Shown: positions 1,011-20,534 of the stretch, in pieces
Position numbering within the stretch: the first letter of the stretch is position 1
Layout of the letters: every line of letters starts with the position of its first letter
NCBI RefSeq assembly: GCF_018140925.1
Contig: NZ_CP073315.1
Span: 3,844,001 to 3,908,000 of the forward strand
Direction: 5' to 3'
DNA from: Psychrobacillus sp. INOP01
GTDB lineage: Bacteria; Bacillota; Bacilli; Bacillales_A; Planococcaceae
DNA length: 64,000 nucleotides
The notes under the pieces: generated by a model
Database searches by the model: none
Told to the model about the DNA's origin: nothing
The model's input: the letters and a program-made list of their open reading frames with translations, nothing else
Made by a program: the position numbers and the translations under genes

Positions 1011-1226
1011 TTAGTTATTTTCTTCATCCTTAACAAACTCGATTATATCTTGTACTTCACAATTTAAAGCTATACATAGTTTATTTAAGGTCTCATATTC
1101 AATTCCGCTATTCTTACCATTTAGTATTTTGGAAATTCCGTTTCTATGCATTCCCGCCTTTTCTGCGAGTGTTCCAATGTTGAATTTTTTTGATTTCATC
1201 GTTTCTTTTAACTTAATTCTAATCAT
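1011..1226 (-). CDS. Small XRE/Cro-CI family HTH repressor
   Basis: This 71-residue protein is almost only a lambda-repressor-like helix-turn-helix: the segment IGTLAEKAGMHRNGISKILN (about residues 17-36) is the recognition-helix region, followed by a KLCIALNCEVQDII helix typical of the family. The start is ATG 1226 with RBS GGAGG seven bases upstream. It diverges from the operon starting at 1389, and the space between them holds two back-to-back promoters and three copies of an ACACTA-type operator. By position it is the likely lysogeny or maintenance repressor of the element, controlling itself and the rightward operon. No peptidase or dimerisation domain is visible, so relief of repression would need another factor. 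Confidence 0.8.
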   Translation of the reverse strand: MIRIKLKETMKSKKFNIGTLAEKAGMHRNGISKILNGKNSGIEYETLNKLCIALNCEVQDIIEFVKDEENN

Positions 1227-1314: not shown

Positions 1315-1343
1315 TTGACAATACACACTAAGGTGTTTATTAT
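1315..1343 (+). promoter_or_regulatory. Rightward promoter of the element operon
   Basis: A consensus -35 TTGACA (1315-1320) is followed after exactly 17 bp by a -10 TATTAT (1338-1343). Operator O2 fills the spacer and O3 lies just downstream in the initially transcribed region, the usual layout for a repressed phage early promoter. Confidence 0.8.
1325..1336. promoter_or_regulatory. Operator O2
   Basis: ACACTAAGGTGT is an imperfect palindrome in the -35/-10 spacer of the rightward promoter. It matches O1 except near the centre. Confidence 0.6.
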
Positions 1344-1694: not shown

Positions 1695-1815
1695 AGGTAA
1701 TACGCGCAATAGATAACTACTTCATCGGAAAGGCGAAGGCGACATAACGGATCGCTTATATTTTTACGGAACTTACACAATTTGCAGTACAATCGTAGCT
1801 ATTATCGCACTATAA
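1691..1815 (+). pseudogene. Small membrane-protein-like ORF with an apparent frameshift
   Basis: ATG 1691 overlaps the upstream stop (ATGA). The first frame encodes MKVIRAIDNYFIGKAKAT and stops at 1747. A second frame entered around 1728-1740 reads on to 1815 as DITDRLYFYGTYTICSTIVA plus a short hydrophobic end, which looks like one membrane segment. Joined, the two would give a roughly 40-residue single-pass protein with a one-base shift in the repetitive GGAAAGGCGAAGGCGAC stretch. This could be a real mutation, a sequencing error or chance. Confidence 0.35.
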
Positions 1816-1827
1816 CATAAAAAGGGG

Positions 1828-2118
1828 ATGGATAAAATGAGAAACTCAGTAACGGAACTTATTTACGACAAAGACGGAAGCGTAATGTCAAAATGTGAAA
1901 CGTTAACAATCGCGGAGGGTATAAGAGTCGAAATGTATTCGGAGCCGACCGATATTAAGCCACGAGAAATCGTTTTAAAGATAGGTAGCGACACTATCGA
2001 AATGAACTATACGGATTCCCTAGCAGATATGTTCGGCAGAATCGAAGAAGTTTCCGCATTTGAATTATTGACCGCTTGCCAAGCTACTTTATGGCAGCCG
2101 AAAGCAAAGGTAGCGTAA
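1828..2118 (+). CDS. Hypothetical protein
   Basis: A 96-residue acidic protein of alternating strand-like and helical segments, not recognised. The start ATG 1828 is preceded by AAAAGGGGATGG. It belongs to the rightward operon, and its stop is translationally coupled to the next small gene by a TAATG overlap at 2116-2120. Codon use matches the element backbone. Confidence 0.6.
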   Translation: MDKMRNSVTELIYDKDGSVMSKCETLTIAEGIRVEMYSEPTDIKPREIVLKIGSDTIEMNYTDSLADMFGRIEEVSAFELLTACQATLWQPKAKVA

Positions 2119-2231
2119 TGGTTTGGATAGAGCATAAAGGATGGTCGATGCAAGTGTCACAGGAGACTGAAAACGATCAATTTGAATTAGCGAGAATTTT
2201 AGCATTACTTCAAAGGGTATCTGAAATATAA
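2118..2231 (+). CDS. Small hypothetical protein (37 residues)
   Basis: ATG 2118 overlaps the previous stop codon (TAATG), so translation probably restarts here. The product begins MVWIEHKGWSMQVSQE and continues as a likely helix. No family is recognised. The coupling and the element-like codons are the only support. Confidence 0.45.
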   Translation: MVWIEHKGWSMQVSQETENDQFELARILALLQRVSEI

Positions 2232-2338
2232 TAGAGGTAGGTTAAAGTTAATTGTAGGAGGTAAAATGTGACTGAACACTCTAAAAGTTGCGTAGTAAGA
2301 TCAGCGCAAAGCGAAAAGGAATAAACGTAAGTAATTAA

Positions 2339-2356
2339 AGCCGGCGCCAAACGGCT
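2339..2356 (+). other. Hairpin 1 of the CGCCAA-loop family
   Basis: The arms AGCCG (2339-2343) and CGGCT (2352-2356) enclose an eight-base loop that contains CGCCAA. It lies upstream of the gene at 2383 and shares its loop with three hairpins at 2701-2784. Confidence 0.5.
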
Positions 2357-2382
2357 AACTAAATCTTAAAGGTGGTAGGATA

Positions 2383-2658
2383 ATGTCTAACATTCACGCT
2401 ATACTTGACAACTTTTTAGAAGCTGAACTATACGCTAACGAACTATCCGAAAACGGTGCATCAAAAGAAGCACATGAAAAAGCGGACGAAATACTTCGAA
2501 AACAAGAAACTGCGCTTCTTTCTGCTATCGGTCTTAACCTTGAAATTCCGTCAGACTCCGATAAATTCGATCGCATACTTGAATTGGTAGAAGAATATCG
2601 CAATGATGAATCACGATATGAAACAATGGTTAGTTACGTTGAATCCTTAAGTCGGTAA
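2383..2658 (+). CDS. Hypothetical helical acidic protein
   Basis: A 91-residue, strongly helical, Glu/Asp-rich protein not recognised from any family. The start ATG 2383 follows AAAGGTGGTAGGATA, a reasonable ribosome binding site. It sits inside the cluster of CGCCAA hairpins, with one hairpin upstream and three downstream. A protein partner for those hairpins could be encoded here, but the low positive charge argues against RNA binding. Confidence 0.55.
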   Translation: MSNIHAILDNFLEAELYANELSENGASKEAHEKADEILRKQETALLSAIGLNLEIPSDSDKFDRILELVEEYRNDESRYETMVSYVESLSR

Positions 2659-2897
2659 CAATCGGTCAAGCCGCCAAATACGCTCAAACGGTGCAAATAT
2701 GGTTACGCCAATAACCTTGTTAAATGATAGGTACGCCAATACCTAGCCAGCCACCTATGACAGCGGTTAGCGCCAACTAATCGCGTATTGCTTTCGGATG
2801 TAAAACAAACTCTCACGTTTCAAAAAAATGATTCTACTGAAAGCCACCATTTATATAGAACGACAAAGAGGACGCCTAGCCAGCGTTCTTTTTTTTA
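2659..2897 (+). ncRNA. Putative structured RNA or 3' UTR with repeated CGCCAA-loop hairpins
   Basis: Three hairpins carry exactly the same hexaloop CGCCAA on different, fully paired stems: GGTTA with TAACC (2701-2716), TAGGTA with TACCTA (2728-2745), and GCGGTTAG with CTAATCGC (2763-2784, eight pairs with one G-U). A further CGCCAA at 2672 has only a weak stem. The segment ends with a hairpin plus T run (2869-2897). Invariant loops with compensated stems point to selection on an RNA or single-stranded DNA structure. No ORF with a ribosome binding site covers it. Whether it is a separate transcript or a trailer of the upstream operon is unknown. Confidence 0.45.
2866..2897 (+). terminator. Rho-independent terminator of the early operon
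   Basis: The arms AGGACGC (2869-2875) and GCGTTCT (2883-2889) pair over seven positions including one G-U. The loop is CTAGCCA and a run of T residues follows. Confidence 0.7.
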
Positions 2898-3388
2898 TTT
2901 TGCGATAAACTCCGAGGTAGGGTACCGGCTTACGTTATAACTAGTAGGTGGTGGAAATGCGCGGATTACCCTTCGAATGTATATAAGATGGTGTACCGGA
3001 ATTATGATGTCCCAAAAATTGAATCCGATTATACATAAGGAAGTAAGTAGAAAAAGTTTTCGAAACAAATTTACGTATGGATCTCGCAAATACGATTTTT
3101 TAGTGTGTACATCAAGTAGGGAGATGTTGCAATTCCGGAGGGGCAACCGTCTATAGATATTAAGAGATGTCGCAACTTTCTAAGGTTTAGTCGCAGTAAT
3201 AAGTATGTCGCAATTTTCGTTGGTTGCGTCCCCTTCATAAGTAAGCGGAAAACTTTTCGAATTTACCTCCGCGCTTTCTATTTTGAAACGATTATAACTT
3301 ATGAAGGTATTAATTCCGCAGGCACTTTCCAGTGTCCGCATTCATATAGAGGTAAATAAATAAAGCAACTAAAGGAGCGTTAAAGATA
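2898..3388. other. Non-coding stretch upstream of the replication-like genes
   Basis: About 490 bp without a convincing gene; the only longer open frame is on the minus strand, lacks a ribosome binding site and has no protein-like pattern. The stretch contains the short direct repeats described at 3121-3217 and is followed by the DUF5659-like and winged-helix genes. It may be an origin or control region. Confidence 0.4.
3121..3217. repeat. Short direct repeats of ATGTCGCAA type
   Basis: GAGATGTTGCAATTCC (3121-3136), GAGATGTCGCAACTTT (3164-3179) and GTATGTCGCAATTTT (3203-3217) are near copies about 40 bp apart, with a partial copy TAGTCGCAGTAA between the last two. They lie upstream of a replication-like gene pair, so iterons or an operator array are possible. 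Confidence 0.45.
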
Positions 3389-3625
3389 ATGGCACAGGGA
3401 ACTAAGCAAAAATGTATACGAAGTATGAGAGTAGCACGCGAATTAATGTCGCGCGGATTTCTACCGATGGACGTTGAAAAGGCGAGAAAGTCGAGAGGAT
3501 ATCTCGTATTTGTATTCCGTGAAACACCGGATCTACTTGAAACACTTAACGAAATTATGGGAGGACAAATCAAATGTCAAAAAGCAGCCAACAGAAAGAC
3601 ACGCAGCCAAAACGTAATACAGTAA
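3389..3625 (+). CDS. DUF5659-like small protein
   Basis: A 78-residue basic protein. Residues 12-50, with RVARELMSRGF and YLVFVFRETPDLLETLNE, resemble the DUF5659 pattern known from phage and plasmid genes of Firmicutes, in which a small compact domain ends with an acidic helix. The start ATG 3389 follows AAAGGAGCG. The 3' end overlaps the following gene by 52 bp in another frame, implying coupled expression. The function is unknown, and the family call is from memory of the pattern. Confidence 0.55.
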   Translation: MAQGTKQKCIRSMRVARELMSRGFLPMDVEKARKSRGYLVFVFRETPDLLETLNEIMGGQIKCQKAANRKTRSQNVIQ

Positions 3626-4050
3626 ATAAGGTAACTCCGGGTGCTGACGGTCGTACATTTATTCCGTTCCCTAGTAATGCCCGCCACTACATTCACCACG
3701 ATAAAGTATCTGCGGACAAATTGTACCTGTATACGTTGTTAATCGATTATCTAAACGTAGATATAGGCGCAGCATTTCCGAGTAACGAGCGACTATCGGT
3801 AGATTACGGCAAGTCATCGAAAACTACCGGACTCCACTTGCGCGATCTAGAACAGGCAGGACTAGTTGCTATTCCGAGTAAAGGTCGATATATACCGCTT
3901 GAGCCGTTAAGTGCTGCCGATTTCTATGCGAGATTCCCGAAGGCATGGACGAATTATACGGAAGCCTTTGCAACTGCGGAACAACGCCAGAAGGATGACC
4001 GCCAAAGACTACGCAAGTATAGAGAGCGAAAAGGCGATACACGTAATTAA
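3574..4050 (+). CDS. Winged-helix replication-initiation-like protein
   Basis: This 158-residue protein holds a helix-turn-helix (about residues 45-110: LYLYTLLIDYLN, AFPSNERLSVDYGKSSKT, LRDLEQAGLVAI) in the layout of DnaD/RepA-N-type replication initiators, where a FPSNxxLA-like helix precedes the recognition helix. A basic C-terminal tail (RQRLRKYRERKG) could contact DNA. Iteron-like repeats start inside its stop codon and continue for 100 bp, as in plasmids and integrative elements whose origin follows rep. The start ATG 3574 has GGGAGGACAAATCA upstream inside the preceding gene. It could instead be only a transcription regulator. Confidence 0.55.
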   Translation: MSKSSQQKDTQPKRNTVNKVTPGADGRTFIPFPSNARHYIHHDKVSADKLYLYTLLIDYLNVDIGAAFPSNERLSVDYGKSSKTTGLHLRDLEQAGLVAIPSKGRYIPLEPLSAADFYARFPKAWTNYTEAFATAEQRQKDDRQRLRKYRERKGDTRN

Positions 4051-4143
4051 GGTTATTATCTACACGTAATTAAGGTGTAAACGTACGTCGTTAACTACGT
4101 GTTAACTAGACTTAATTAACTAGATTTAATAACTAGATTTAAA
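4038..4143. repeat. Iteron-like direct repeats (candidate origin)
   Basis: TACACGTAATTAAGGT occurs twice, at 4038-4053 and 4061-4076 (23-bp period, first copy over the stop codon of the winged-helix gene). It is followed by three tandem 13-14 bp units based on AACTAGATTTAAT at 4104-4117, 4118-4130 and 4131-4143. Repeats followed by an AT-rich stretch behind a replication-like gene suggest an origin or a partition site. Confidence 0.5.
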
Positions 4144-4155
4144 AACATTGCGCCC

Positions 4156-4176
4156 AATAAGCAAAGAACGCTTATT
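4156..4176. repeat. Inverted repeat next to the iterons
   Basis: AATAAGC (4156-4162) and GCTTATT (4170-4176) form a 7-bp hairpin with a 7-base loop. It may be part of the putative origin or a nick site; the role is not known. Confidence 0.4.
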
Positions 4177-4299
4177 AGTCGCGGATGCAATTAACTTATA
4201 TATGTATTTATCGATAAAGAACTTATTCAAAGAATAAGGAGAAATAAACGGTACACGTAATCCGCGCCGTACGCAACTAAGGAAGGGGAACGCAGCTAA

Positions 4300-5178
4300 A
4301 TGACAACGATTAAACTAGACGAAATCAAAAAAACTATCACGCTCGCCGAATTATATCCCGGATCCATCTATGATAATACTGAAAATAAGTTACTACGTCC
4401 ACAGCACCAGATGATATATAGCGCGGAATTTCCGAAGTCTAAAAAACCGTCAATCCTAGAGCAATTCGCAAATGTCGAAGATGTCCTGTTAAAACGTGCG
4501 CCAACGACGACGTTGGAAGGACAAGCTAACAAGTTAATTCTCGAAGCCGAGCACATGGAACAGCTACTCGCTCGCTTATATCCGCCAGTAACAGACCGTG
4601 CTTATGTAGAAAACGCCGATTTTACCGTGACGGATTTATACAACGATATTGTATCGCGTATGGAATGGACCGCTCTACGATGTCTAGTGTTAATTTCCGT
4701 ATTTGGAATCGATGCATTATCGACATTTGATACCGTTCTATACTGGGACTACTATCGCGAGGAACGCAAGAAATGGCGTGCATGTCGTTATAAATATTGC
4801 TTGAATATGTTCGCAGTCAAGGGCGATAACCTTCGCGGTGAGCGTCCTAAGCGATATGACTGTCGTTATTGTTCCGAAGCTTGCCGTAAAGCTACATACG
4901 AAGCTGAAGAACGTTATAAGCTACACGGCTCCTATTTGCCCGTCTATTACTATACGGATCAACTGGCGGATACGGTAGGAGATAAAACAAGGAAGCATGA
5001 GATCGCCTGTTCATCGGAAAAAATCGATAAACAATACGCAAAAGGAAAAGTTACATCGCCTATGAAAACGCCAAAAAGAACGGAATACAAGGGCGGTAAG
5101 ATTATGGAATATAAATCGATGGAGGAAGCTAAAATAGCATATGAAATCGCTGGAAACAAAGGGAAAATACGTATATAG
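4300..5178 (+). CDS. Zinc-ribbon (CGNR-like) element protein
   Basis: A 292-residue protein. The middle (about residues 155-215) has a cysteine cluster, CRYKYC, then YDCRYCSEACRKATYEAE, which resembles the treble-clef CGNR zinc finger of DNA-binding proteins, although the Gly-Asn-Arg itself is altered. The N-terminal half is helical and unrecognised, and the C-terminal tail is basic and probably disordered. The start ATG 4300 follows AAGGAAGGGGAACGC. It stands downstream of the putative origin and may act in replication or regulation; that role is inferred only from position. Confidence 0.5.
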   Translation: MTTIKLDEIKKTITLAELYPGSIYDNTENKLLRPQHQMIYSAEFPKSKKPSILEQFANVEDVLLKRAPTTTLEGQANKLILEAEHMEQLLARLYPPVTDRAYVENADFTVTDLYNDIVSRMEWTALRCLVLISVFGIDALSTFDTVLYWDYYREERKKWRACRYKYCLNMFAVKGDNLRGERPKRYDCRYCSEACRKATYEAEERYKLHGSYLPVYYYTDQLADTVGDKTRKHEIACSSEKIDKQYAKGKVTSPMKTPKRTEYKGGKIMEYKSMEEAKIAYEIAGNKGKIRI

Positions 5179-5265
5179 CCGTCGGAAAAATCGCTATGAA
5201 TGTATAAGGGTGGAAATGCCCGCTATATCTTTTTATAGACAAAGTGAGAAAAAGGAGGAATAGAA

Positions 5266-5923: not shown

Positions 5924-5944
5924 ATTTAAAAAGGGGTGGAAGAA

Positions 5945-8194
5945 ATGCAAGAAAGTATAATCGTACAAATTGGAGCAAATATCACACAATTCCAAAATGC
6001 TATTAACCAGGTTTCGGGCGATTTACGAAACGTAGGTAACGATATGACTAGCTTTGGAACAAAAATGGCGAAAGGTTTTGGGGCCGCTACTTTGGCAGTC
6101 GGCGCAGGTTTAGGTTTTGCCGTTAAACAAGCGTCGGACTTCGATACAGAGATGCGGAAAGCCGGAGCAATTGCGGGCGCGTCAGCGAAAGAACTCGATG
6201 CTATGAAAACATCAGCGCTAGATTTAGGGGCATCGACAAGTGAAAGCGCAAGTAGTGTAGCAGCTGCAATGACGGAAATGGCAGCAAAAGGATTTACGGC
6301 TAATCAAACAATCGCAGCTATGCCTGGTGTAATTGCAGCAGCAGAGGCGAGCGGTGAGGACTTAGCGCTCGCGGCGGATACAGTTGCTTCAGCGTTAAAC
6401 ATATTCGGACTAGAAGCGGGCGAATCGTCAAGAGTTGCGGATATATTGGCAATGACGGCGAATATGTCAGCTGCAGGAATTACCGATATGCAATATGCGC
6501 TTAAATATGCGGGTGCGCCGGCGGCAGCGTTAGGAATATCAATGGAAGAACTGTCCGCATCTATAGGAATTTTAACCAATGCAGGTCTTGACGGAAGTTC
6601 GGCTGGAACAAGCCTACGTGCGTCATTGCTAGCGTTAAATAACCCGGCGAAAGCACAAGCGAAAATGATGGATGCACTCGGATTCTCGCTAACGGATTCT
6701 GAAGGTAAAACGAAGTCAATGGCGGATATGGTCCGAGATTTGACGGCTTCAATGGAACACATGACCGAAGCAGAGAAAGTAGCTACGTTAGGTAAGTTAG
6801 TCGGAACGGAAGCGGTATCCGGGTTCCTTGCGTTAATGAAAGCGGGACCCGAAGCGATTGAAGCGAATACACTTGCACTGCAAAATAGCGCAGGGGCTGC
6901 GGCGGAAACTGCGGCACAAATGAAAGCCGGTATCGGCGGTGCGATGGAAAATTTATCGGGTGCGTTCGAAACTGCCGCGATAATGATCGGCAACCAGTTA
7001 ATACCGTATGTACAGAGTGCGGCGGGATTCATAGCAGAATTAATTAATAAATTCAACGGCTTGTCAGAAGTTACTCAAGCATTTATCACGAAAAGCGCGT
7101 TAGTTACTGCGGGATTACTAGCAGTCGGAACAGGTATAGGAATCCTTATAGCATTTACCGGTACCGTTATTTCAGCTTTTGCCACAATTACCGGTGTAAT
7201 GGCGACGGTAGCTACTTCGTTAGGGATAACAGGCGGAGCGATGGGCTTACTAGGCGCAGCATTTACCGCAATAACAGGACCTATCGGAATTGCAGTCGCT
7301 GCAGTAGCCGGTATTGTAGCCGCTTTAGTAGTCGCATATAACAAGGTAGATTGGTTCCGCGATATGGTTAATAGTGCGTGGACAAAGGTTAAAGAAGGAA
7401 CGGTAATAGCTTTCAATGCGGTTAAAAGCGCAATAACAACGGCTATTTCGGCAGTCTTAGCATTTGTAAAACCGCAACTAGACAAGTTTAAAGCGTTTTG
7501 GGATGAAAACGGTAAGGCTATTACAACCCTAGCAAAGTCGTATTTCACTTATCTACAAACCATGATTACCGGCGTAATGGGCGTTATTAAAGGCGTATTC
7601 CAAACAGTATGGCCAATTATTTCATCGGTGGTTAAAGTGGCGTGGGAGACTATTAAACTAGTTATTTCATCCGCTATCGACATTGTATTAGGCGTAGTAC
7701 AAGCCGGACTAAAGTTACTTCAAGGAGATTGGAAGGGTGCTTTAGATTCGCTATTACAAGTATTAAAAGATGTATGGGGGAACGTAGAAAAATTCTTTAA
7801 GGGTATCGATTTAGCTGATATCGGAAAAGACATTATACGCGGATTGATTAAAGGTATTAGCGGAATGGCTGGTTCGGTTAAAACCGCGGTTAAAGACTTA
7901 GCAAATCTTATTCCGGACGGTTTGAAGAAATTTTTAGGAATTCATTCCCCTTCTAAAGTAACTGAAGAGGATGGGAAATGGACTACATTAGGGTTTGCTA
8001 AAGGTATTACAGGAGAATTCGGAACCGTTATAAAAGCAGGGGAAAACCTCGCTAAAGCGGCACACGGAGCTATCGCACTAGCTGCACCGAAGGATAAATC
8101 GAGTAAGAAAACGAAAGCGCGTGCGAAAAGCTTACTTAAAGTATTGGCGACAACCGTAGCACCTAAATTTAGTTTGAAAGAGGTGACAGTATGA
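5945..8194 (+). CDS. Phage tail tape measure protein (TP901 family)
   Basis: About 749 residues from ATG 5945, which has AAGGGGTGG at 5931-5939; an in-frame GTG at 5936 lies inside that ribosome binding site and is less likely. The N-terminal 320 residues match the TP901/PhageMin_Tail core (DFDTEMRKAGAIAGAS, SASSVAAAMTEMAAKGF, GITDMQYALKYAGAPAAALG, GLDGSSAGTSLRA). A hydrophobic Gly/Ala-rich zone follows at about 385-485, then long helices. It would set tail length and sit in the tail lumen. No tail-tube, chaperone, portal or capsid gene adjoins it, which is unusual. It overlaps the following gene by ATGA. Confidence 0.9.
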   Translation: MQESIIVQIGANITQFQNAINQVSGDLRNVGNDMTSFGTKMAKGFGAATLAVGAGLGFAVKQASDFDTEMRKAGAIAGASAKELDAMKTSALDLGASTSESASSVAAAMTEMAAKGFTANQTIAAMPGVIAAAEASGEDLALAADTVASALNIFGLEAGESSRVADILAMTANMSAAGITDMQYALKYAGAPAAALGISMEELSASIGILTNAGLDGSSAGTSLRASLLALNNPAKAQAKMMDALGFSLTDSEGKTKSMADMVRDLTASMEHMTEAEKVATLGKLVGTEAVSGFLALMKAGPEAIEANTLALQNSAGAAAETAAQMKAGIGGAMENLSGAFETAAIMIGNQLIPYVQSAAGFIAELINKFNGLSEVTQAFITKSALVTAGLLAVGTGIGILIAFTGTVISAFATITGVMATVATSLGITGGAMGLLGAAFTAITGPIGIAVAAVAGIVAALVVAYNKVDWFRDMVNSAWTKVKEGTVIAFNAVKSAITTAISAVLAFVKPQLDKFKAFWDENGKAITTLAKSYFTYLQTMITGVMGVIKGVFQTVWPIISSVVKVAWETIKLVISSAIDIVLGVVQAGLKLLQGDWKGALDSLLQVLKDVWGNVEKFFKGIDLADIGKDIIRGLIKGISGMAGSVKTAVKDLANLIPDGLKKFLGIHSPSKVTEEDGKWTTLGFAKGITGEFGTVIKAGENLAKAAHGAIALAAPKDKSSKKTKARAKSLLKVLATTVAPKFSLKEVTV

Positions 8195-19480: not shown

Positions 19481-19531
19481 TTAAGAAACGCCACCAACTC
19501 GTAGTATGAGCGGTGGCGTTTCTTAATTAAT
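19478..19531. terminator. Bidirectional terminator between 19124 gene and integrase
   Basis: A perfect inverted repeat with arms ATTAAGAAACGCCACC and GGTGGCGTTTCTTAAT, 16 bp each, loop about 16 bases. It also covers both stop codons. Confidence 0.85.
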
Positions 19532-20534
19532 ACACGTCTAGTTTTGCCGTTATCGAATATTCCTTTGCAGCTTTCACGATAGACTTACTCGATACATGTG
19601 CATAACGCTTAACCATATCGTACTTAGAGTGACCAAGTATCATACGTAGTTCCTCCATACCACCGCCGTTTTCCAACCAACTAGTAGCTGCGGTGTGTCG
19701 AAATAGATGAGGATGAACATTTTTACGAATATGTGCGGATGCCGCATAATTCTTCAGCCTCTGATTATACGTATGCCTGTCGTAGAAAGAATCTTCACCA
19801 GTGGCGAAAACGAAAGCAGAACGATATTGGTGATCGTTTTCCTTCATTAGTTCTTCAAGCAAGCGAAGCGTTCTGTCACTAACTGGTACCGCTCTAGACT
19901 TACGACTTTTGGCTATACTAGCGCGAACAATAATAACTCCGGACTCTCGGTTGATGTCGTCATACTTAAGGCTTACAGCTTCTGTAACTCGTAACATCGT
20001 ATCGAGAAGTAAAATGGTCAGTACGTAATCTCGGTACACCGTGTAATAAGACTTGTCCATTACGCCTAGGAGCCGAACGATTTCTTTATCGGATAGTACT
20101 TCGATAGGTTCTTCCGGCTCGTACACATTCTTAATTCGGTCGACGGGATTACTATTGATTAACCTCTCGCTATACAACGTATTGAACATAACGCGAATCG
20201 TCTTAATACGAGTGTTTATCGTCGCGGGCTTCAAACCGACTTCCTTTACTTTACGTGTTGCAACTTTGCGGTATTGAATATGATCGAACTGCATATACGT
20301 AATCCACTTACGTATGAATTCGCTAGTGACCACATCTACATCAAAATCGTTTCCATTCCGTTCGACATAATCACGGAAGAATCTGAAGTTCTCTTCGTAC
20401 TGTTTGACCGTTCCACCCGACACACCTTCCGCGACTTTAATACTGACGAATTGGCGGAATAGATTACGAATATCTTTCGCGTCTGCCGATTCTTGTTTCG
20501 CATGATTGGCGACATAGTTTCGCCGTTTCCTCAA
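19527..20534 (-). CDS. Tyrosine recombinase (element integrase)
   Basis: 335 residues from TTG 20534, supported by GGAGG eight bases upstream. The core-binding domain spans about residues 20-130. The catalytic domain has Arg in TMLRVTEAVSL, Lys in SIAKSRKSRAVPV, His-x-x-Arg in HPHLFRHTAAT, His in LGHSKYDM and the nucleophilic Tyr in KRYAHVS. All key residues are present, so it should be active. It lies next to the 3' end of tRNA-Val, the usual arrangement for element integration into tRNA genes. It is a relative of the broken integrase at the left window edge. Confidence 0.92.
   Translation of the reverse strand: MRKRRNYVANHAKQESADAKDIRNLFRQFVSIKVAEGVSGGTVKQYEENFRFFRDYVERNGNDFDVDVVTSEFIRKWITYMQFDHIQYRKVATRKVKEVGLKPATINTRIKTIRVMFNTLYSERLINSNPVDRIKNVYEPEEPIEVLSDKEIVRLLGVMDKSYYTVYRDYVLTILLLDTMLRVTEAVSLKYDDINRESGVIIVRASIAKSRKSRAVPVSDRTLRLLEELMKENDHQYRSAFVFATGEDSFYDRHTYNQRLKNYAASAHIRKNVHPHLFRHTAATSWLENGGGMEELRMILGHSKYDMVKRYAHVSSKSIVKAAKEYSITAKLDVY

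Follow-up and report, generated by a model that had tools for sequence, protein, structure and literature searches.

The hairpins of the lambdoid nut sites (boxB) work together with the N protein. The ROOL and GOLLD RNAs are large, several hundred nucleotides long, and adopt a complex single fold. In plasmids of the IncI/IncFII type, UUGGCG and CGCCAA form kissing loops that take part in antisense/pseudoknot control near the replication gene, and type III toxin-antitoxin systems carry tandem structured RNA units, with pseudoknots, followed by a terminator. N and nut are also mentioned in the available part of PMC9378689, according to which the put RNA of HK022 is about 70 nt long and has two particular stem-loops. 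The STAXI motif is described as a repeated pseudoknot in the available part of a survey of 104 candidate RNAs (PMC2864571).

Here we analyze a hairpin array that looks like an undescribed regulatory RNA. It lies in the window, by which we mean the whole stretch of 64,000 nucleotides that was analyzed, part of a 4.3-Mb complete genome. The left end has an integrase gene with an open piece that stops soon after entering the catalytic domain. It is followed by a minus-strand repressor, a promoter-like site, three early ORFs, the array with its terminator, a repeat stretch and replication-type genes. The repressor (1011–1226, minus strand) is an HTH protein divergent from the early operon and matches a PHROG transcriptional repressor (E 2.4e-10). 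The candidate driver of the early operon is a sigma-70-like promoter, TTGACA-17-TATTAT (1315–1343, plus strand), with 11 of the 12 consensus letters; such matches are no commoner between 1000 and 5500 than in shuffled sequences (10 versus a mean of 12.9), and it is to be read as a consensus match only. All three early ORFs are on the plus strand. The first (1389–1694, 101 aa) has no family match, the second (1828–2118, 96 aa) is a divergent member of an early-gene family (profile A4, 21% identical to its first row) which adjoins arrays in relatives, and the third (2383–2658, 91 aa) has no protein relative in the searched sets, protein searches with it returning only itself or nothing. A repeat-bearing stretch (2900–3388, no strand assigned), similar by eye to stretches at the same position in relatives, separates the array from the replication side. 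There, the genes encode, in order, a DUF5659-like protein (below the cut-off), an HTH_36 protein, a cysteine-rich protein, a Cro-like protein and, last, a tail tape-measure protein. Two of them served as synteny anchors: the HTH_36 replication-type protein (3574–4050, plus strand; Pfam HTH_36 E 2.4e-6), which is 56–57% identical in the relative G029, and the paired-cysteine protein (4300–5178, plus strand), zinc-finger-like by eye but matching no Pfam family above cut-off, which is 44% identical there.

Positions 1–20738 appear to form an integrative element of about 20 kb beside a tRNA-Val. An intact-looking integrase (19527–20534) adjoins the tRNA and the cut-short integrase mentioned above stands at the left of the element, which also encodes a tape-measure protein, an EndoVII/HNH nuclease, a resolvase and an AbiJ-type defence protein. 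The tape-measure-like protein is short (5936–8194, 752 aa) and directly follows the Cro-like gene; a 636-aa ORF at 3282–5192 of the related locus L007 resembles it by eye and has no Pfam match. No capsid protein was recognized among the ORFs scanned of this element, which may represent a phage satellite or a prophage in reduced form. The prophage setting proposed originally is right in being phage-like, but the host of the array looks like a small integrative element without a recognized capsid gene among the ORFs scanned, and less like a plain complete prophage.

The original prediction described four CGCCAA hairpins, one with a slightly larger loop, on fully paired stems of 5, 5, 6 and 8 pairs. 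Their coordinates and stem lengths are right, and three of the loops read CGCCAA: ggtta[CGCCAA]taacc at 2701–2716 (5 pairs), taggta[CGCCAA]taccta at 2728–2745 (6 pairs) and gcggttag[CGCCAA]ctaatcgc at 2763–2784 (8 pairs), all on the plus strand. The longest of these stems holds one G.T pair (G.U in RNA), so that full pairing is not strict, and the fourth hairpin (2339–2356, plus strand), which sits between two early ORFs, carries a larger, 8-nt loop, GCGCCAAA, on the 5 pairs of agccg and cggct. This 8-nt loop recurs identically in another genus, at locus L058 (= G066). As had also been described, a fifth CGCCAA (2672–2677, plus strand) lacks a stem, and the array is closed by an intrinsic terminator (2865–2893, plus strand, 11 pairs including G.T) with the loop CTAGCCA, which falls outside the loop set.

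In the whole window the number of CGCCAA sites is ordinary (23 on both strands versus a shuffle mean of 22.6). What is odd is their clustering: about 430 nt of a single strand contain five of them, and four of these stand on stems. The window contains 3 hairpins with an identical hexaloop (stem of at least 5) within 450 nt; the best value in 60 Markov sequences of 64 kb was 1 (35 times) or 2 (25 times), and never 3. However, a 236-nt stretch of the window folded no better than its shuffles (z -1.1), and its lowest-energy fold did not hold all three hairpins together. The closing pairs of the three hairpins had probabilities of 0.34–0.75 in this context and of 0.95–0.99 in a 101-nt local fold, which itself gave a z of -0.8. 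Because the longer fold resembles that of shuffles and the hairpins are secure only locally, the window by itself would leave doubt.

The case rests on relatives. Positions 1800–3400 of the window had no DNA match among 50,697 phage records, and a DNA search of 151 relatives with 2300–2900 returned, besides the window, only G083, with 24 and 44 nt inside the 91-aa ORF. No CGCCAA hairpin was present in the fetched stretches L008 and L009. Scans of viral contigs with three single proteins and with the HTH_36 profile A2 gave no relatives; a triple-motif scan of viral contigs gave L136 and L153 as the sole clustered CGCCAA hairpins among the matches listed, and these were rejected as they look like short tandem repeats. 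The relative G029 (= L048), Indiicoccus explosivorum of the Caryophanaceae, has a gene order like that of the window, and its element carries a terminator with the loop CCCGCCAA and a CGCCAA just 3′ of the preceding gene. Profile A2 matched 12 of 261 family genomes. Around these matches, L031 contains two CGCCAA hairpins and a terminator with the loop TTGGCG, L030 and L032 carry other loops of the set, and the stretches of the other nine genomes (two of them short contigs) hold no array, the window and G029 apart.

The early-gene profile A4 matched in 21 of 261 family genomes at E 0.01. We searched 1.2 kb 3′ of the early gene for hairpins with set loops and stems of at least 5 pairs, merging sites less than 14 nt apart, and found at least two in 17 of the 21 loci. 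The loci with fewer are L046, L048, L053 and L056, the count in L048 (= G029) being low since its terminator loop is offset; L055 and L058, with two hairpins each, are the weakest of the 17, and a few of the hairpins counted in L043 and L050 sit some hundred bases beyond the array proper. Over the 21 loci, the sense strand held 64 set-loop hairpins, compared to 0.67 on average, and never more than 5, for 200 hexamer sets with shuffled letters. The opposite strand held 25. About strand, this difference alone proves little: a sequence that folds into a hairpin on one strand can partly do so on the other as well, but the opposite strand loses G.U pairs, and the loop set contains no complement of TTGCAG, TTGCTG or CCCCAA.

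A pattern of two GCGCCAAC within 14–44 nt occurred in 28 of 255 family genomes. Hairpin arrays were verified in 13 of the 28 (G032, G036, G156, G162, G164, G167, G169, G170, G178, G180, G182, G233, and G235), 14 had no clustered stems in the scanned locus, and G250 was rejected as an identical tandem repeat. In a class-wide sample, the pattern was found in 31 of 254 genomes; none of 29 loci examined from these matches showed clustered stems. One pattern match of another family, G462 (f46), has ttagtg[CGCCAA]cactag and tcgtag[CGCCAA]ctgcga after two early ORFs with a repressor-like ORF adjoining. G408 (family f11) has cggtta[TTGGCG]taatcg and the terminator aaagcagttgcg[TTGGCG]cgtagctgcttt after one early ORF, again with a repressor-like ORF adjoining. 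These two, both with arrays, and G149, without one, are the three weak out-of-family matches to the cysteine-rich protein. The array appears as a compact RNA family that the eye can recognize; the phage-like elements carrying it belong to at least three Bacilli families.

Relatives share the order of a divergent repressor, early genes, the array with its terminator and replication-type genes; a repressor-like gene lies on the opposite strand upstream of the array in 15 of 16 loci, L214 being the exception. Arrays have 2–6 separate hairpins spread over about 50–350 nt; with the outlying hairpin at 2339 included, the array of the window extends over 555 nt. Long stretches of degenerate repeats, iteron-like by eye, separate the array position from the replication genes in the window (2900–3388), L031 (8230–8760), L032 (7240–7880), and L033 (10580–9450, minus strand), and are very long in L033. 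This last element has no array and carries at the array's place (about 11245–11165, minus strand) repeated TGACGTTA/TGACGTCA, including a 10-pair hairpin, perhaps a different unit for the same task. A short hairpin, cgtcga[nCAA or nCAG]tcggcg, was also noticed by eye just ahead of the first gene of the replication region, close to its start, in L030, L031, L032, and L033.

Comparison of the 21 loci showed that stems accompany the loop motifs within arrays and hardly elsewhere. CGCCAA stands on a stem at 48 of 61 sites inside arrays and at 2 of 95 outside, TTGGCG at 7 of 12 versus 1 of 94, CGGCAA at 5 of 9 versus 3 of 97, and TTGC[ACT]G at 12 of 19 versus 2 of 347; the inside fractions are descriptive because array bounds were set after the hairpins had been seen, and the outside fractions serve as the control. 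Stem positions 2 to 5 form pairs at 34–40 of the 44 distinct CGCCAA sites, with 17–23 expected from composition. In a symmetric count of wobbles in the stems of 55 distinct hairpins, the transcribed strand showed 42 G.T cells, from 14 loci, versus 2 A.C cells, from two closely related arrays (L212 and L213), a bias whose p-value of 1e-10 is too small because the sequences are related. Only the early-operon strand tolerates G.U, and therefore what folds is RNA of that strand, not DNA. We folded 16 of the 20 relatives: the sense strand gave a z of -2.3 to -6.7 in 15 and of -1.7 in L007, and the opposite strand folded more weakly in each of the 16. Single loops did not always form: the complete L225 fold contained that of the terminator alone, and in L213, L215, L218, and L220 the closing of some loops was not firm.

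Seven related arrays allowed the hairpins to be aligned. RNAalifold recovered four of the hairpins and one imperfect one, with two double-changed pairs; its covariation term was near zero because most pairs are invariant in these arrays. Further compensated double changes are visible by eye between G235 and G036. The four orthologous loops read CGCCAA in 4, 6, 7, and 6 of the 7 arrays, the exceptions being CGTCAA, CACCAT, CGCAAA, CACCAA, and an inverted TTGGCG, which means that single loops can change. Between elements of families f1, f11, and f46, stems diverge far more than loops. At the level of sequence, these data show that selection maintains the hairpins, in the form of RNA from the early-operon strand, with the loop as the more constrained part across elements and the stems free to change. 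The selection for constant loops on compensated stems that had been postulated is supported by the stem fractions, hairpin counts and wobble bias of the relatives. Of the two molecules then considered, RNA is favored by the strand bias of wobble pairs and by folding energy, and single-stranded DNA is not. Loops that vary freely, or stems that do not covary, are not what the relatives show overall; one hairpin of the seven arrays does have 3 of 7 loops deviating on an intact stem.

The commonest array loop is CGCCAA, which a few hairpins replace with CACCAA or CCCCAA. The arrays of L030, L032, L225, L226, and L260 have TTGGCG, often as GTTGGCGA, and no CGCCAA; L030 and L226 carry CGGCAA too. 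TTGCAG, TTGCTG, and TTGCCG are mainly terminator loops. CGCCAA and TTGGCG are exact reverse complements of each other, as are CGGCAA and TTGCCG; the loop kind UUGCAG/UUGCUG/UUGCCG pairs imperfectly with CGCCAA. By reading, 18 of 23 arrays close with a terminator-like hairpin bearing a loop of the set; the window, L032, and L259 do not, and L212 and L223 are ambiguous. That TTGGCG arrays are CGCCAA arrays seen from the antisense side was rejected, as the G.U pairs of both kinds lie on the early-operon strand. Complementary loops within one array occur in L031 only, where the terminator stem is almost unchanged compared to its relatives and the loop is inverted; inversion between the stem arms is therefore one origin of such loops. 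Early proteins that are 90% identical (75 of 83) adjoin a CGCCAA array in L216 and a TTGGCG array in L032, and a 154-nt array with 84% identity is the only stretch common to the 16-kb neighborhoods of L213 and L214. Both facts indicate that the array is an exchangeable unit; comparison of neighborhoods shows it keeping its place between repressor-divergent early genes and replication genes and able to move, or be exchanged, as a block. In L214 (oriented 7818–7971), the array stands without phage genes, downstream of ORFs that resemble accB and accC by eye.

We tentatively favor, at a little under an even chance, that the 3′ part of an early phage-like transcript is a multivalent hairpin RNA and that its loops are recognized by a partner RNA that base-pairs with them. 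According to this model, the early transcript of an integrative phage-like element would end in several hairpins, mostly with the same hexaloop, and then an intrinsic terminator. The number and likeness of the loops suggest recognition units used several at a time, which may be read by a partner RNA through loop-loop contact and not by a protein alone. The RNA released at the terminator would likely control an early step, be it lysogeny, replication or competition between related elements. We prefer base pairing because there are two main kinds of natural array and their loops, CGCCAA and UUGGCG, are exact reverse complements. Against it, inversion between stem arms yields complementary loops without any pairing. 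Outside the arrays of the 21 loci, no complementary hairpin set that could be the partner RNA was found, and either hexamer occurs in isolated hairpins of 5–6 pairs only: one in L222, at 10693, with 5 pairs and the loop TTGGCG in a CGCCAA element, two in L227, at 3441 and 9915, and the one at 2339 of the window. RNA targets at predicted start codons were discarded as candidates, since neither the 152 sites of 17 class A loci nor the 37 sites of 5 class B loci included one at such a codon. A further step, that CGCCAA and UUGGCG arrays form a two-sided code whose transcripts zip by loop-loop contacts when their elements share a cell, so that one element would sense or silence the early transcript of the other, seems improbable to us.

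The hairpins could instead be repeated sites at which a single RNA-binding protein, encoded by phage or host, would bind, the loop being the recognition sequence and elements differing in specificity, which we regard as a serious possibility, if an unlikely one. Several similar loops per transcript, carried on stems that are free to differ and placed in the early operon just before the terminator, fit such sites, and so do the flanks of the loops: CGCCAA is flanked by G and C at 50 of 61 array sites and TTGGCG by G and A at 5 of 12. What speaks against this reading is that the two specificities are exact reverse complements of each other. The early protein itself is an unlikely reader if specificity co-evolves, because its 90%-identical copies adjoin both loop kinds, and it was set aside; moreover, no RNA-binding family was recognized in the early ORFs of the window or in six A4 proteins, the latter compared with PHROGs only.

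That the array is a cis-acting element for processive antitermination, similar to nut, put, or conAn, and permits read-through into the replication genes, we consider doubtful. Its position in the early operon, directly before the terminator and upstream of the replication genes, is what such an element would have, and precedents are known (available parts of PMC9378689 and PMC8955417). However, in 5 of 21 oriented loci (L031, L212, L215, L216, and L219) a predicted convergent ORF of 110–142 aa follows right after the array, so that read-through would run antisense to it; none of the five ORFs has a family match. Together with the terminator hairpin, which itself usually bears a loop of the set, these ORFs make antitermination less likely, and one array stands apart from phage genes.

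Quite improbable is the view that the hairpins merely stabilize or end early mRNAs and owe their common loop to frequent duplication, not recognition. The closing terminator, the 87% likeness of two window hairpins over 15 nt, and the change of single loops on intact stems agree with it, but stems diverge far more than loops across f1, f11, and f46, which duplication alone does not explain. DNA-level hairpins, acting as cruciforms or as single-strand replication or priming sites beside origin-like repeats, have in their favor the nearby repeat-bearing stretches ahead of replication-type genes, and are extremely improbable given the 42 G.T to 2 A.C wobbles, a last hairpin that is usually the terminator, and a hairpin at 2339 between early ORFs.

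If the loops are read by base pairing, as we favor, RNA arrays would be a means of mutual recognition for mobile elements; if a protein reads them, they would represent a new RNA-binding specificity. In both cases the array belongs to the regulatory region that governs the choice of such elements between dormancy and growth, and whichever reading holds, its constant loop makes direct tests easy.

Rfam 15 at curated cut-offs detected only tRNA in the window. At E up to 5, positions 2200–2950 gave one chance-level match (Zeta-pan, E 1.9), and 15 related loci at E up to 0.5 yielded two cobalamin riboswitches and nothing else, these lying in L042 and L045 away from the arrays; this search left out L030–L032, L212–L227, L259, and L260 as such, although 15 of the arrays come from genomes that it covered. 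The original remark that no familiar family matches agrees with Rfam for the arrays searched. Its suggestion of a large ornate RNA of the ROOL/GOLLD kind was set aside: no Rfam model matches the array of the window beyond chance level, and the arrays are separate hairpins over about 50–350 nt. No description of such arrays was found in the literature, judged by titles and the start of abstracts in a coverage that mostly excludes subscription journals. Judged from its sequence, the array is in our view a new RNA family, the mechanism of which may yet prove to be a variant of a known one.

Compared to type III toxin-antitoxin systems, the arrays likewise have tandem structured RNA units and then a terminator, but their units are simple hairpins, not pseudoknots, and no toxin was recognized beside the window array: the ORFs at 3389 and 3574 match DUF5659 (below cut-off) and HTH_36, and neither matches a defence toxin. 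In relatives, the five convergent ORFs scanned gave no match either. The IncI/IncFII kissing loops likewise place these complementary hexamers in RNA close to a replication gene. In those plasmids, each RNA has a single loop pair and meets a cis-encoded antisense RNA, whereas here many copies of one loop occur and no partner was found. Among the titles searched, we found no report of UUGGCG as a kissing loop of a plasmid antisense RNA, and UUGGCG/CGCCAA do not occur in the available part of the IncK antisense RNA paper PMC10724649. Similar to STAXI, the arrays are repeated structured units near genes of mobile DNA; STAXI, as presented in the available part of PMC2864571, is a repeated pseudoknot, and the array has no Rfam match.

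The phage systems come closer. Like nut/boxB, the arrays are conserved-loop RNA hairpins in an early transcript before a terminator, and loop types differ between phages. In contrast to nut/boxB, there are 2–6 hairpins per array, the hexaloops come as reverse complements, and in some elements a convergent ORF lies directly downstream; an N-like protein was not recognized, there being no family match to an RNA-binding protein of this type for the window early ORFs or the A4 proteins. Like put of HK022, they are stem-loops in early phage RNA that possibly need no phage protein, and they are set apart from put by its description in the available part of PMC9378689 and by the Rfam search alone. 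Like conAn of pLS20, as far as it is described in the available part of PMC8955417, the array belongs to a Gram-positive mobile element and combines an RNA with a gene for a small protein close to where an operon starts; conAn, however, acts at the start of a long operon, whereas the array closes a short one with a terminator.
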